Positions 13,485 to 18,043 of a stretch of 40,180 bases of DNA are shown in pieces. A program made the position numbers and the translations under genes. The notes under the pieces are model-generated. The model saw nothing but the letters and a program-made list of their open reading frames with translations. It had not been told where the DNA came from and did not search any database. Position 1 is the stretch's first letter. Every line of letters begins with the position of its first letter. The stretch is from Dysosmobacter sp. (GTDB lineage Bacteria; Bacillota; Clostridia; Oscillospirales; Oscillospiraceae). The DNA lies in contig JALFSO010000113.1 in assembly GCA_022778785.1 (NCBI GenBank), forward strand, positions 1-40,180. Reading direction: 5' to 3'.

Positions 13485-13506
13485 ACCGTCAAAATTGAAT
13501 CGCTGA

Positions 13507-13668
13507 GATAGAGGCGCGAGGTCCATCAGTATCCTCCGGCAAAGGCCAGGCAAGCCGCCGGCGGGGAAAGGGAACATCGCCGAAGTGCTGCGGGATTGCC
13601 TGATCCCGGGGTGCTGGGCCGTCAGGAAACACCTGCCGGACTGTCACAAGGTTTTGTGAAGCGCTATC
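13507..13668 (+). promoter_or_regulatory. Lysine riboswitch (L-box)
   Basis: The segment opens with GATAGAGGCGCGAGG and closes with GAAGCGCTATC, so GATAG and CGC pair with GCG and CTATC as stem P1. Between them lie CAGTATCC, GGGGAAAGGGAAC, GCCGAAGTGC and a CACAAGGTTTTGTG hairpin, which follow the order of conserved L-box elements. This riboswitch class binds lysine and reduces expression. Here it is followed by an intrinsic terminator, then an amino-acid ABC importer, which points to transcription attenuation of lysine uptake. Confidence 0.9.
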
Positions 13669-13718
13669 AATGGCTGTTCGGGACGGCTCCCAGAGAGGGG
13701 CTTCTTCCGTATTTTCCA

Positions 13719-13821: not shown

Positions 13822-14757
13822 ATGAAGAAGTTTTTTGCAATGATGCTCTCTCTGGCCATGGCCCTCAGCCTGACCGCCTGCGGCTCCGGTTCCTCCGGCG
13901 CCGCCTCCGCCCCCGCTGCCTCCTCTCCCGCCGCTTCTGCGTCCGCCGCGGCCAGCTCCGCCGGTGACGCCGATGTCATCCCCGGTCTGGAGGACGGCGT
14001 GCTGACCGTCGGCATGGAGTGCGCCTACGCCCCCTACAACTGGACCCAGATGGACGACTCCAACGGCGCCGTGCCCATCTCCAACGTCTCCGGCGCCTAC
14101 GCCAACGGCTATGACGTCATGATCGCCCAGAAGATCTGCGACGCCAACGGCTGGGAGCTGGAGATCGTCTCCAGCGCCTGGGACTCCCTGTGCCCCGCTG
14201 TGCAGTCCGGCACCATGGACGCCAACATCGCCGGTCAGTCCATGACCGCTGACCGCATGGAGCAGGTGGATATGGCCGGTCCCTACTACTACTCCACCAT
14301 CGTCTGCGTCACCACCAAGGACAGCAAGTACGCCAGCGCGACCTCCATTGCCGACCTGGCCGGCGGCAAGTGCACCTCTCAGTCCGGCACCATCTGGTAT
14401 GACTCCTGCCTGCCCCAGATCGAGAACGCCGAGCTCCTGGCCCCCGCCGACACCGCTCCCGCCATGACCATGCAGCTCCAGACCGGCACCGTGGACTTTA
14501 TCTGCACCGATATGCCCACCGCCATGGCCGCCGTCGCCAAGGACGACAATCTGGTGATCCTGGACTTCTCCGGCACTGACGGCGACTTCCAGTTCGCCGA
14601 CGAGGAGGAGCGGGCCGAGAACGTGAACATCGGCATCTCCGTCCAGAAGGGCAACACCGCCCTGAAGGACGCCATCGACGCCGTGCTGTCCACCATGACC
14701 GAGGACGACTTCAACGCCCTGATGGATCAGGCCATCGCCATCCAGCCTGAGGTCTGA
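13822..14757 (+). CDS. Polar amino-acid ABC transporter binding lipoprotein (predicted lysine)
   Basis: 311 residues. The lipoprotein signal ends at L-T-A-C (Cys20), followed by a 30-residue Ser/Ala/Gly-rich tether. The mature domain is the SBP_bac_3 type, with MECAYAPYNWTQ near the start of lobe 1, the MTADRMEQVDMAGPYYYS segment and a late NVNIGISVQKGN segment. It captures a polar amino acid outside the cell. Lysine is inferred from the L-box riboswitch and not from binding residues; arginine or histidine remain possible. Confidence 0.88.
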   Translation: MKKFFAMMLSLAMALSLTACGSGSSGAASAPAASSPAASASAAASSAGDADVIPGLEDGVLTVGMECAYAPYNWTQMDDSNGAVPISNVSGAYANGYDVMIAQKICDANGWELEIVSSAWDSLCPAVQSGTMDANIAGQSMTADRMEQVDMAGPYYYSTIVCVTTKDSKYASATSIADLAGGKCTSQSGTIWYDSCLPQIENAELLAPADTAPAMTMQLQTGTVDFICTDMPTAMAAVAKDDNLVILDFSGTDGDFQFADEEERAENVNIGISVQKGNTALKDAIDAVLSTMTEDDFNALMDQAIAIQPEV

Positions 14758-14777
14758 TACTGATTTCATGATCATCC

Positions 14778-14813
14778 GCGTCCTCCGGCCCTGTTTTCAG
14801 GGCCGGAGGATGC
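14778..14813 (+). other. Intercistronic hairpin without T-run
   Basis: A stem of about 16 bp (14778-14793 with 14798-14813, TTTT loop) stands between the binding-protein and permease genes. It is not followed by a T-run, so it more likely protects the 3' end of the binding-protein message after processing, allowing excess binding protein, than acts as a full terminator. Confidence 0.75.
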
Positions 14814-14846
14814 ACCGCTGTCAACGAAACGAAAGGAGTTTCGCCC

Positions 14847-15728
14847 ATGGATAAGCTGGTGAAGCTGTGCCAGGATATCGCCCAGCTGTGGAGCAAATAC
14901 TGGCCCATGTACATGAGCGGCGTGAAAAGCACGCTGATCCTCGCGCTGGTGGCCACGGTCATCGGCTGCGTCATTGGCCTGATCTGCGGCATTCTGAACA
15001 CCATCCCCTACACGAAAAACGATCCCCTCCCCAAGCGGTTTCTCCTGAAGCTGATCCGGGTCCTGGTCCGCGTCTACGTGGAGGTGTTCCGGGGCACCCC
15101 CATGGTGCTGCAGGCGGTGTTCATCTACTACGGCCTGCCCTATTTCACGGACAACGCCCTGCGGTTCAACAGCACCTGGGCGGCCGCCATCCTCATCGTC
15201 TCCATCAACACCGGCGCCTATATGGCGGAGTCCGTCCGAGGCGGCATCATCTCCATTGACCCCGGCCAGACCGAGGGCGCCAAGGCCATCGGCATGACCC
15301 ATGTCCAGACCATGACCAGCGTCATCCTGCCCCAGGCCCTGCGGAACATCATGCCCCAGATCGGCAACAACTTCATCATCAACGTGAAGGACACCTCCGT
15401 CATGTTCATCATCACCTTCACGGAGTTCTTCGCGGCCCACCGGTATATCGTGGGCGTCAACAACATGTACTTCCCCTCCGCCACCATTGAGATGGTCGGC
15501 TATCTCACCATGACGCTCATCGCCTCCTTCCTGCTGCGGTGGGTGGAGAAGCGAATGGACGGCGACGACAGCTATGAGCTGGTCCAGGAGGATCAGCTGG
15601 TGATGTCCGCCGGCACCTACAGCCATCCCGACCGGGGCACGCCCTTCGATGAGCGCAGCAAGGAGTACCGGGAGCGGACGAAGCAGGCACTGAAAAACCG
15701 CAACGGAAGTACGAGAGGAGAACGGTGA
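14847..15728 (+). CDS. Polar amino-acid ABC transporter permease (HisMQ type)
   Basis: 293 residues with an AAAGGAG ribosome site. Residues 20 to about 235 hold the membrane spans and the EAA loop region [20 protein letters not shown] (about 131-150), continuing into [14 protein letters not shown], which contacts the ATPase. The family is usually 215-240 residues. The last 55 residues here form a charged cytoplasmic tail with no recognised motif. Only one permease gene is present, so a homodimer is likely. The ATPase gene starts one base after the stop. Confidence 0.9.
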
Positions 15729-15729
15729 C

Positions 15730-16470
15730 ATGAGCGATACGATCCTTGAGATCCGGCATCTGTCCAAGGCCTTCGGCAGCCATGAGGTGCTGCGGGACAT
15801 CGACTTCACCGTGGAAAAGGGCGACGTGACCTCCATCATCGGCGCTTCCGGCTCCGGCAAGTCCACGCTGCTGCGGTGCGTCAACCTGCTGGAGACCCCT
15901 ACCAGCGGCGAGATCCTCTACCACGGAAAGAACGTGGCGGACCGGACCGTCAGCGCCCCCGCCTACCGCTCCCACGTGGGCATGGTGTTCCAGTCCTTCA
16001 ATCTGTTCAACAACATGACGGTGCTGGAAAACTGCATGGTGGGCCAGGTGAAGGTGCTGAAGAAGAACAAGGAGGACGCCCGCAGGAGCGCCCTGAGCTA
16101 TCTGGAAAAGGTGGGCATGGCCCCCTACATCAACGCCAGGCCCCGCCAGATCTCCGGCGGCCAGAAGCAGCGGGTGGCCATCGCCCGGGCGCTGGCCATG
16201 GAGCCGGAGGTGCTGCTGTTCGACGAGCCCACCTCCGCCCTGGACCCGGAGATGGTGGGCGAGGTGCTGGAGGTCATGCGGCAGCTGGCCGCCGACGGCA
16301 TGACCATGCTGGTGGTGACCCATGAGATGGCCTTCGCACGGGACGTCAGCAGCCAGGTGGTGTACATGAACCAGGGCGTCATCTGCGAGCAGGGCACGCC
16401 GGAGCAGGTCTTCGGCGATCCCCAGCGGCAGGAGACTCGTGACTTCCTGGCCCGGTTCCGGAAAAACTGA
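15730..16470 (+). CDS. Polar amino-acid ABC transporter ATP-binding protein (GlnQ/HisP type)
   Basis: 246 residues. Walker [10 protein letters not shown] (about 38-46), Q-loop VFQSFNLF, signature ISGGQKQRV, Walker [14 protein letters not shown] and switch His in VVTHEM are intact. It powers the importer whose binding protein and permease precede it, and completes the lysine-riboswitch operon. A strong terminator follows the stop. Confidence 0.93.
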
Positions 16471-16491
16471 GTCCATTCATCTGAAAACCTG

Positions 16492-16530
16492 CCCGCCGCG
16501 GAACAGACGCTTCCGCGGCGGGTGTTTTTT
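16492..16530 (+). terminator. Intrinsic terminator of the amino-acid ABC operon
   Basis: A 12-bp stem (16492-16503 with 16511-16522) followed by TG and TTTTTT. Confidence 0.9.
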
Positions 16531-16557
16531 GCTTCGGCATAAAACACCGCAGGGCGC

Positions 16558-16580
16558 AAAAAAAGACGGCCCCATGGCCG
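16558..16580 (-). terminator. Second, back-up minus-strand terminator
   Basis: On the minus strand CGGCC-ATGG-GGCCG (16567-16580) is followed by TC and a run of seven T. It lies just beyond the first terminator of the putative RNA gene. Confidence 0.6.
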
Positions 16581-16596
16581 CCGGATGAAAAACATC

Positions 16597-16629
16597 GACC
16601 CCGCCAACCTCCAACGAGCTGGCGGGGTC
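16597..16629 (-). terminator. Minus-strand terminator of the putative RNA gene
   Basis: A perfect 10-bp stem (16597-16606 with 16620-16629) whose minus-strand product continues GATGTTTTT. Confidence 0.75.
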
Positions 16630-16904
16630 ACTTCTGGTAGGGCTTCTCGTTCACTAAGCGTTACCTCAAACTTTCTTCGGATTCTTCTGAAAGATTCATG
16701 CAGGGGTCGGATGCTTGCCAATCCTTAAAACATAAGTACACGCAGTCGTTGCATTTGCTGTTGCCAATGCGCTGGTGTGGTCTCGGTGAATACGAGTGAT
16801 GTTTCGTTTTTGGTAGGAATCGGTCTGCTGGATTCTTTCAGAGGTTCAGGAACTTACTGAGTTCTCAGATGGGACCTAGCCCATGGGACTCACCCCTTCC
16901 TTGT
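16597..16904 (-). ncRNA. Candidate independent structured small RNA, about 300 nt
   Basis: The 545-nt interval between the amino-acid ABC operon and the FliB-like gene has no credible protein gene and is more AT-rich than its flanks. On the minus strand it has a promoter (16911-16939), then about 300 nt, then two tandem terminators. The 5' part folds well: TGAGT (16858-16862) pairs with ACTCA (16888-16892) around an ATGGG/CCCAT hairpin (16869-16884). An alternative CTGA/TCAG hairpin (16857-16868) would exclude the outer stem. RNase P, tmRNA and SRP RNA signatures are absent. By size and clade the raiA RNA family and 6S RNA are the first things to test; I cannot confirm either by eye. Confidence 0.55.
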
Positions 16905-16910
16905 GTCTAT

Positions 16911-16939
16911 AATGTACAACATCTTTCGGGATTTGTCAA
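16911..16939 (-). promoter_or_regulatory. Promoter of the putative minus-strand RNA
   Basis: On the minus strand TTGACA (complement of 16934-16939), 17-nt spacer, TACATT (complement of 16911-16916). A TATAGA follows 5 nt later but is badly spaced for this -35. Confidence 0.6.
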
Positions 16940-16968
16940 TTGCTTTTGTGCTACTTCTCTAGTTTTTA

Positions 16969-16985
16969 CAAACGTAAAACGTTTG
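16969..16985. repeat. Short inverted repeat CAAACGT-AAA-ACGTTTG
   Basis: A perfect 7-bp inverted repeat located 30 nt upstream of the RNA promoter and 30 nt after the FliB-like stop. It could be a weak terminator element for that operon or a regulator site. A second hairpin, GGCAGA/TCTGCC, lies at about 16990-17012. Confidence 0.5.
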
Positions 16986-17014
16986 CTGGCGGCAGATTGC
17001 ACAAAGTCTGCCCG

Positions 17015-18043
17015 TCAGGACTCCAGCGCCGCCAGAAGCTGCGGGAGGGAGACAACGTCTCCCTGATAAAAGGCGTCCAGCAGGGCGTCCAGATTGTCCT
17101 CGTCGTGCTCGATCTCACAGCTGAACCGCCGCAGGGCTTCCGGCAGACCGCACACCGCCGCCAGACGCTCCACCGTCAATACCGCGAAGACGCACAGCTC
17201 CGCCCGGCTCAGGAGGTCGCCGTCGTTGATAGCTTTCAGCAGGTAACGGAAGGCGAAATAGACAGCAATGCGCTCCAGCGGCGGCTCCGGTACCGGCGCC
17301 GCCGGGGCCGTCTCCGCCTGACGCAGCAGGGCGGGCCAGTCATCGTCCAGAGTCTCCAGCGCCGCCAGGAACCGCAGGCCGTCGGGGAACAGCGGAGGTG
17401 CCCCATCGGGCCGGACAGCGTCTTCCGGCGGCGTCCAGTCCGACACCAGGGCGGGCAGCTCAGATGCCTGTTCCTCGTCCAGATATCCCTGGGCATCCCA
17501 GGCCAGCAGCAGAAAGTCCCGCAGGCGGCGGCGCAGGGGAAGGCTCCGATCCGCCAGAATGTCCAGCAGCCGGGTCCGCAGGGGCAGCAGACAAGGGAGC
17601 CAATCGTCGCCCGTCTCCCCTGCTTCCGGCGTCTCGCGCTCCGGAAATGTCAGGGGGTTGCCGCTGCCCAGCAGCAGAGCGTTGGCCGCGGGACAGGAGG
17701 CGCACAGGGTGATCTCCCGGAAGGGGCCGTAGTCCTCCGTGAACCGGGGATGCTCCCGGCAGGTGACGCTGGTGGCCGCCTCTCCCAGCTGCCGGTGGAT
17801 CTCGCAGAGGTTGTCCCCGTCCAGAAAGGGACAGCGCCCGCCGTTCAGGGGAAAGCAGACGTCTCCGCCTTCATCCTCCCGCATGGCGGCTCGCAGTCTG
17901 TCCCCCAACGGACCGGGGACGCCCTCATACCGGCGGACAGTATCGTCGTCCAGGACTACCTCCCACTTTTCGCAGCAGGTGTGGGGACAGGCGCCCGCCA
18001 GACAGCGGAAGTTATCGTAATAATCCGGCACGCGGATCAGCAT
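17015..18043 (-). CDS. FliB-like Cys-rich protein (flagellin lysine-N-methylase family)
   Basis: 342 residues from ATG 18043, the best spaced behind GGAG (other in-frame ATGs are at 18049 and 18052). The N-terminus contains C14-LAGA-C19-PHT-C23-C24, the Cys cluster typical of the FliB/YkgJ-like family, which probably binds iron-sulfur or zinc. More Cys follow in CREHPRF and LCASCPAA. Family members are annotated as flagellin lysine methylases, but no flagellar gene is nearby, so another protein substrate or role is possible. It is the last gene of the long minus-strand salvage operon. Confidence 0.78.
   Translation of the reverse strand: MLIRVPDYYDNFRCLAGACPHTCCEKWEVVLDDDTVRRYEGVPGPLGDRLRAAMREDEGGDVCFPLNGGRCPFLDGDNLCEIHRQLGEAATSVTCREHPRFTEDYGPFREITLCASCPAANALLLGSGNPLTFPERETPEAGETGDDWLPCLLPLRTRLLDILADRSLPLRRRLRDFLLLAWDAQGYLDEEQASELPALVSDWTPPEDAVRPDGAPPLFPDGLRFLAALETLDDDWPALLRQAETAPAAPVPEPPLERIAVYFAFRYLLKAINDGDLLSRAELCVFAVLTVERLAAVCGLPEALRRFSCEIEHDEDNLDALLDAFYQGDVVSLPQLLAALES

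Follow-up and report, generated by a model that had tools for sequence, protein, structure and literature searches.

A putative family of stand-alone, structured and translated RNAs in the Oscillospirales

The RNA gene and its surroundings

The window (the whole 40,180-nt stretch of Dysosmobacter sp. DNA that was analysed) contains on its minus strand a structured RNA that forms an independent gene, with a predicted promoter and terminator of its own and a predicted transcript of about 300 nt. Its features, all on the minus strand, are given here in the direction of transcription:

16911..16939, minus: promoter, with the -35 box TTGACA at 16939-16934, a 17-nt spacer and the -10 box TACATT at 16916-16911
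16889..16902, minus: 5' Shine-Dalgarno element AAGGAAGGGGTGAG
16876..16884, minus: 5' two-codon ORF, ATG GGC TAG
16834..16842, minus: 5' strand of the long-range helix P2, TCTGAAAGA, pairing with 16694-16686
16799..16813, minus: 5' strand of the core helix P4 (CCAA and GAAACA), pairing with 16734-16718
16782..16796, minus: hairpin P5 (CTCG/CGAG in the window, CTCA/TGAG in most relatives)
16739..16780, minus: hairpin P6, with strands 16780-16771 and 16747-16739
16718..16734, minus: 3' strand of P4, TATGTTTTAAGGATTGG
16686..16694, minus: 3' strand of P2, TCTTTCAGA
16663..16675, minus: 3' Shine-Dalgarno element GAAAGTTTGAGGT
16628..16654, minus: 3' micro-ORF with a GTG start, eight codons (MNEKPYQK) and TGA
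16599..16627, minus: terminator hairpin, starting immediately 3' of the micro-ORF stop
16558..16582, minus: second terminator-like hairpin with a T-run, read in the window copy

The promoter on which the original prediction was built is indeed present (16939-16911) and is the sole promoter-like site in the region 16300-17200, for which shuffled sequences gave a mean of 0.4. The two successive minus-strand intrinsic terminators that it proposed were likewise recovered by a site scan, as terminator-like hairpins at 16630-16596 and 16582-16565; both strands of the same region hold three such sites (mean of 1.0 in shuffles). Phased A-tracts resembling an UP element are conserved upstream of the -35 box (16940-17000 in the window and the equivalent positions in relatives), and a GCAAACGATTTGC-like palindrome often lies further upstream of them. 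An inverted repeat (TTTGTG...CACAAA) considered upstream of the promoter was discarded, as it occurs in some copies only and the full set shows just the phased A-tracts.

The earlier view that the stretch carries no credible protein gene stands in part. The listed ORFs of at least 60 aa overlapping it are not conserved as proteins (the alignment of the relatives is indel-rich there), but on the minus strand two conserved micro-ORFs had been overlooked.

The same-strand gene upstream of the RNA was read as fliB-like in 34 of 58 loci, on the basis of a Pfam CxxCxxCC match just below cut-off. On the other side, the window carries an amino-acid-type ABC transporter operon (13822-16470; solute-binding protein, permease and ATPase), which converges on the RNA gene and is preceded by a Lysine riboswitch (RF00168, 99.5 bits; 13501-13674, plus strand).

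Comparison with known RNA families identified no counterpart. At gathering scores Rfam gave no match at the RNA locus, leaving an RNA class without an Rfam match after the very search that the original prediction had recommended; with E values up to 10, only far sub-threshold matches appeared in 16300-17300. The reported lack of RNase P RNA, tmRNA and SRP RNA signatures agrees with the absence of an Rfam match to any of the three at the locus and with the ARAGORN analysis, which detected no tRNA or tmRNA anywhere in the window. The two families put forward as the main known alternatives gave no match at the locus either. For raiA RNA (RF03072) no match was found in 16300-17300 at E up to 10; a genome-wide search returned none, but neither did its controls, so that it says nothing on raiA elsewhere in the genome. 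The 6S RNA model (RF00013) was rejected, having no match at the locus and scoring over its cut-off on another contig of the same genome (C117). Searches of literature listings and main texts yielded no description of the RNA; supplementary candidate lists may hold it. In word searches of main texts, PMC8040213 had no occurrence of Oscillospira, and PMC11109978 none of Oscillibacter, Oscillospira or Ruminococc. With no Rfam family at threshold and no published description in the literature searched, the RNA appears to be new.

A covarying middle and two micro-ORFs within the genus

A blastn search produced matches in 36 of 99 genomes, namely the window's own, 34 of the 60 other genomes of the same genus and one genome of another family (G074), where the match is doubtful, being confined to the promoter part. 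Of 86 Oscillibacter/Dysosmobacter genomes, 64 were matched by the core covariance model R1, with one copy each, and the remaining 22 were not; across the family R1 matched 7 of 300 genomes, in 2 of 106 genera. When 84,980 species genomes were scanned with a pattern, 58 loci were returned, labelled Oscillibacter, Dysosmobacter, Oscillospiraceae or uncultured Clostridia, among them O. valericigenes Sjm18-20 (L083), O. ruminantium GH1 (L045) and one false positive (L061). A phage RNA is not supported, since viral contigs yielded no exact match to the core pattern. A second model (R2), run on the 22 R1-negative genomes of the genus and 17 genomes of other genera, gave two weak matches: L132, which carries both end modules, and L133, the sole match among the 22 negative genomes, which resembles chance. 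Outside the genus, the core models reach only G384 and, weakly, L132.

Folding of the window copy alone is hardly informative (z-score of -1.59, with 4 of 100 shuffles folding equally well), which made a comparison with relatives necessary. Such a comparison, also foreseen in the original prediction as a collection of homologues with a covariation test, was based on an alignment (A3) of 58 non-redundant RNAs and a named structure of 45 pairs. In this alignment 89.8% of the cells are paired versus 85.2% in shuffles, a level reached by none of the 500 shuffles; double changes occur in 24 pairs versus 14.0 in shuffles, while sliding the partners against each other as a control leaves 30-42% pairing. 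The predicted multi-stem middle, P2-P6, is a covarying structure. The long-range helix P2 is formed by CCGTTCGG/CCGAACGG in most copies, by TCTGAAAGA/TCTTTCAGA in the window and by CCGTCAG/CTGACGG in L048. A separate helix search in each of 53 RNAs placed the best long-range helix (6-11 bp) at or near the P2 position in 52, the exception being L028, where another helix outscored it. The evidence from P4 is neutral with respect to structure, because this helix hardly varies.

The 5' part had been read as offering two exclusive folds (TGAGT/ACTCA around ATGGG/CCCAT, or CTGA/TCAG). Both folds are legible in the window copy, yet they are not conserved: the second CCCAT and the CTGA/TCAG pair are not kept in the relatives, and this stretch is conserved instead as a Shine-Dalgarno element followed by ATG-GGC-TAG. 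Nor is the notion of a purely non-coding RNA supported, given two putative ribosome-binding sites with micro-ORFs, at 16884-16876 and 16654-16628, which are among the most conserved parts of the RNA as judged by comparison of its copies.

These micro-ORFs were surveyed in 65 complete genus-level copies, comprising the 58 compared RNAs and seven found by R1 (one of the latter, L131, is the complete form of the incomplete pattern locus L075). At the 5' end, the Shine-Dalgarno site is followed by a start, one codon and a stop in 54 of the 65; a longer frame (8 to 25 codons) occurs in five and no start in six. In four copies of one subclade (L033, L055, L067 and L070) the early stop is lost, so that the frame would continue as far as a conserved GCGTGA in helix P3 and span 23-25 codons.

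The 3' micro-ORF is present in all 65 copies (in L103 the rule found none and the ORF was placed by eye). It starts with TTG in 34, ATG in 27 and GTG in 4, stops with TGA in 24, TAA in 22 and TAG in 19, and has seven codons in 58 copies and eight in 7. As in the window, where it ends directly at the terminator stem, the distance from stop to hairpin is 0-2 nt in 64 of 65 copies; in the remaining one (L055) the script picked a longer hairpin 4 nt away. When the ORF end was slid by -60 to +30 nt as a control, such an ORF was found in 0-1 of 65 copies. The ORF formed part of the extraction rule for the 58 copies; the first 30 loci were picked by blastn before the ORF was known, and the rule dropped only three loci, all ending at a sequence edge (L049, L065 and L075). 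The encoded peptides are diverse (e.g. MDNPINE, METPIQK, MYDFGQQ, MTENQKER and MQKETRQ). Changes between nearest neighbours amount to 11 synonymous versus 13 non-synonymous (a count without a formal test), by which some selection on the peptide is possible.

The predicted openness of the ribosome sites is unremarkable (mean of 0.37 for the 3' Shine-Dalgarno element versus 0.42 for the whole RNA). An extended pairing with the 16S tail, considered as a special feature, was abandoned, as the pairing energy shows no excess over background (6.2 and 6.6 sites per kb versus 7.9 in GC-rich background). In the terminator loop region (16599-16627 in the window) GGA recurs in 62 of 66 modules, though the stem varies. 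Five loci (L009, L019, L021, L022 and L029) have, further downstream, a duplicate of the terminator hairpin and of the latter half of the 3' ORF, with copy-specific letters identical in both copies.

End modules in the family and the order

A model of the 3' module (R3), built from 57 sequences including L132 and L048 from other genera, matched 82 of 300 genomes in the family, representing 38 of 106 genera, mostly with one match per genome. These 82 comprise six genomes of the window's genus, G384 and 75 others, from which 64 loci were examined and the 11 weakest matches left out. An abutting micro-ORF was found in all 64, in 55 by a first rule, in three by a second rule applied after correction of the place, and in six by eye (one of these with a CTG start). 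Its length is 7 or 8 codons in 52 of the 64 (L179 counted as 8), within an overall range of 6 to 12. Individual loci may be misjudged, since the rule accepted anything from 2 to 16 codons and used the best hairpin. Of the 64 loci, 49 had a recognisable 5' element, whose frame spans 1-2 codons in 35 of them and is longer in 14. The 5' pattern missed 15, one of which (L139) has the element by eye; in L132 and L189 UAA comes immediately after the 5' AUG. These family-level RNAs are barely detected by the core models, so conservation is stronger at the ends than in the middle.

At the level of the order, 42 of 394 genomes had an R3 match with E no higher than 0.01; half of these genomes lie outside the family, and their matches are weak. 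Inspection of 12 loci revealed a 3' micro-ORF before the hairpin in five (L214, L215, L217, L219 and L220) and a module with no stop before the hairpin in L216; L218 and L221-L225 showed none, L221 belonging to the window's family. L214, from another family, has five occurrences of the motif GGAGGTAC[AG]GTCC with a spacing of 67-178 nt; AAA follows four of the copies, and only the last leads to ATG, seven codons, a stop and the hairpin. Strict copies of the motif number three in L216, three in L220 and two in L215; for comparison, 110 kb of flanking sequence contains 3 and 79 kb of window background likewise 3. One or more strict copies are present in 23 of 65 genus-level and 21 of 64 family-level RNAs. 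In L197, which belongs to the window's family, the last module is preceded by two AGGAGGTACGGTCC copies that have ORFs of three codons. Arrays of the L214 type are likely to be homologous to the window RNA, a relationship based on the last module.

An Rfam search of 20 distant loci gave sub-threshold matches except for two tRNAs lying off the RNA, and the only match overlapping the RNA was a sub-threshold Thr_leader in L215 (29.8 bits, cut-off 55). Behind the module, sub-threshold cobalamin riboswitch matches were seen in L214 and L220, and L219 has a T-box match, below cut-off, behind its RNA-like module.

Proposed function and relation to known systems

Our preferred interpretation, which we judge about as likely as not to be correct, is that these loci constitute a new Oscillospirales family of stand-alone RNAs, both structured and translated, that retain ribosomes. 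One promoter would give rise to a transcript of about 300 nt with a covarying middle and with ribosome sites and micro-ORFs at its ends, where ORFs of 2-8 codons could be translated repeatedly by a ribosome that stays on the message. The nearest working precedent is mccA, whose seven codons are translated about 71 times by one ribosome before it dissociates; PMC6495379 describes it as a ribosome-bound short message with a terminator just behind and a conserved length but not sequence, and extends such repeated translation to ORFs of 2-8 codons. Both ORFs of the RNAs described here mostly fall within this range, and because ORFs of this size allow repeated translation, as in mccA, ribosomes may stay on the ends of the RNA. 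Ribosomes so held would shield the RNA and have an effect on the neighbouring terminator. The length and position of the ORF are under stricter constraint than the peptide sequence, and hence the act of translation probably matters more than its product. An RNA carrying ribosomes in this manner might withhold them, or it might offer its folded middle to a partner.

A broader generalization, which we put forward tentatively and with considerably less confidence, would be an order-wide ribosome-capturing RNA, a counterpart of what 6S RNA is for RNA polymerase, composed of repeated GGAGGU-ACRGUCC modules with AUG or AAA after them. The window's family would then have modules at both ends, with ORFs of 1-2 and 7-8 codons holding ribosomes on the RNA, and another family (L214, L215, L216 and L220) an array with a start codon in the last copy only.

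Two other explanations compete with ribosome retention, both of them unlikely in our judgement. The locus could be a micropeptide gene, the product being the peptide of 7-8 residues and the folded leader (perhaps an aptamer) controlling its translation. This would agree with starts restricted to ATG, GTG and TTG, all three stops and in-frame lengths in 65 of 65 copies, with residues that recur (M-D/E-N-P-I within the genus, an M-x-E-x-Q-like series in other genera), and with a folded domain immediately upstream of the Shine-Dalgarno element. Yet the peptides vary widely among copies while length and place are fixed, no export signal or modifying neighbour was recognised, and the 5' ORF of 1-2 codons would be left unexplained. 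Alternatively, the folded middle could do the work as a trans-acting regulatory RNA, with the ribosome sites and micro-ORFs merely stabilising the transcript. Ribosome sites near the end of an RNA do serve as stabilisers in other bacteria, the folded core is conserved in the genus, and no cis target gene was found among the 58 loci; a working middle, however, should be the better-kept part, and it is the end modules rather than the core that extend across the family. We favour ribosome retention over both.

A leader or attenuator controlling a downstream gene is very improbable. The succession of structured leader, Shine-Dalgarno element, short ORF and terminator is attenuator-like, and sub-threshold Rfam leaders fall at the 3' end, i.e. 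the Thr_leader of L215 and a Leu_leader in L006 (24.6 bits, cut-off 50). The genes downstream speak against it, as no conserved co-oriented gene was found there among 58 loci (five with fewer than 600 bases downstream): 28 have a gap gene on the opposite strand, the other copies have different neighbours, and the window itself has the ABC transporter, again on the opposite strand. Even less can be said for the precursor gene of a microcin C-like peptide-nucleotide. As in mccA, there are seven codons with a terminator just behind, and length is kept while sequence is not; McC precursors, however, end in asparagine (PMC6495379), whereas the peptides of these RNAs mostly close with E, G, K or V, and a Pfam scan of six window neighbours recognised no adjoining MccB-like gene. 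A CsrA sponge of the CsrB type, built on GGA motifs such as that of the terminator loop region, scarcely merits consideration, as GGA is not enriched (7.63 per RNA versus 7.58 expected) and CsrA, found in 36 of 86 genus genomes, is lacking in RNA-bearing ones such as G045, G018 and G023 and in the window's own, for which the idea is refuted as far as the assembly is complete.

A stand-alone bacterial RNA that belongs to no Rfam family and whose end modules recur within one family, in 38 of the 106 genera sampled, is unusual. The RNA described here combines a folded structure with two extremely short conserved ORFs in fixed position relative to ribosome sites and terminator. To our knowledge, short ORFs, Shine-Dalgarno sites and structured RNAs are known singly but not in this assembly. 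A purely non-coding reading of such a locus can miss micro-ORFs that have the strongest conservation. Should the RNA indeed hold ribosomes, gut bacteria would have a new way of tuning translation, and the repeated translation of very short ORFs would have a natural test case.

Among known systems, 6S RNA is similarly single-copy, stand-alone and structured; the genome has its true 6S gene elsewhere, and the window RNA has no Rfam match. Riboswitch and attenuator leaders share the order of structured leader, Shine-Dalgarno element, short ORF and terminator, but the window RNA differs in having no conserved co-oriented gene behind it. Dual-function small RNAs also combine folded parts and a conserved ORF in one small transcript, although the ORFs here have only 1-2 and 7-8 codons and the RNA function is putative. 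The resemblance to mccA lies in a 3' ORF of 7-8 codons with a Shine-Dalgarno element and a terminator behind, its length kept and its sequence not; unlike mccA, the window RNA is a stand-alone gene whose ORF lacks a C-terminal asparagine, with a folded domain of ~200 nt in front and an additional ORF of 1-2 codons at its 5' end.
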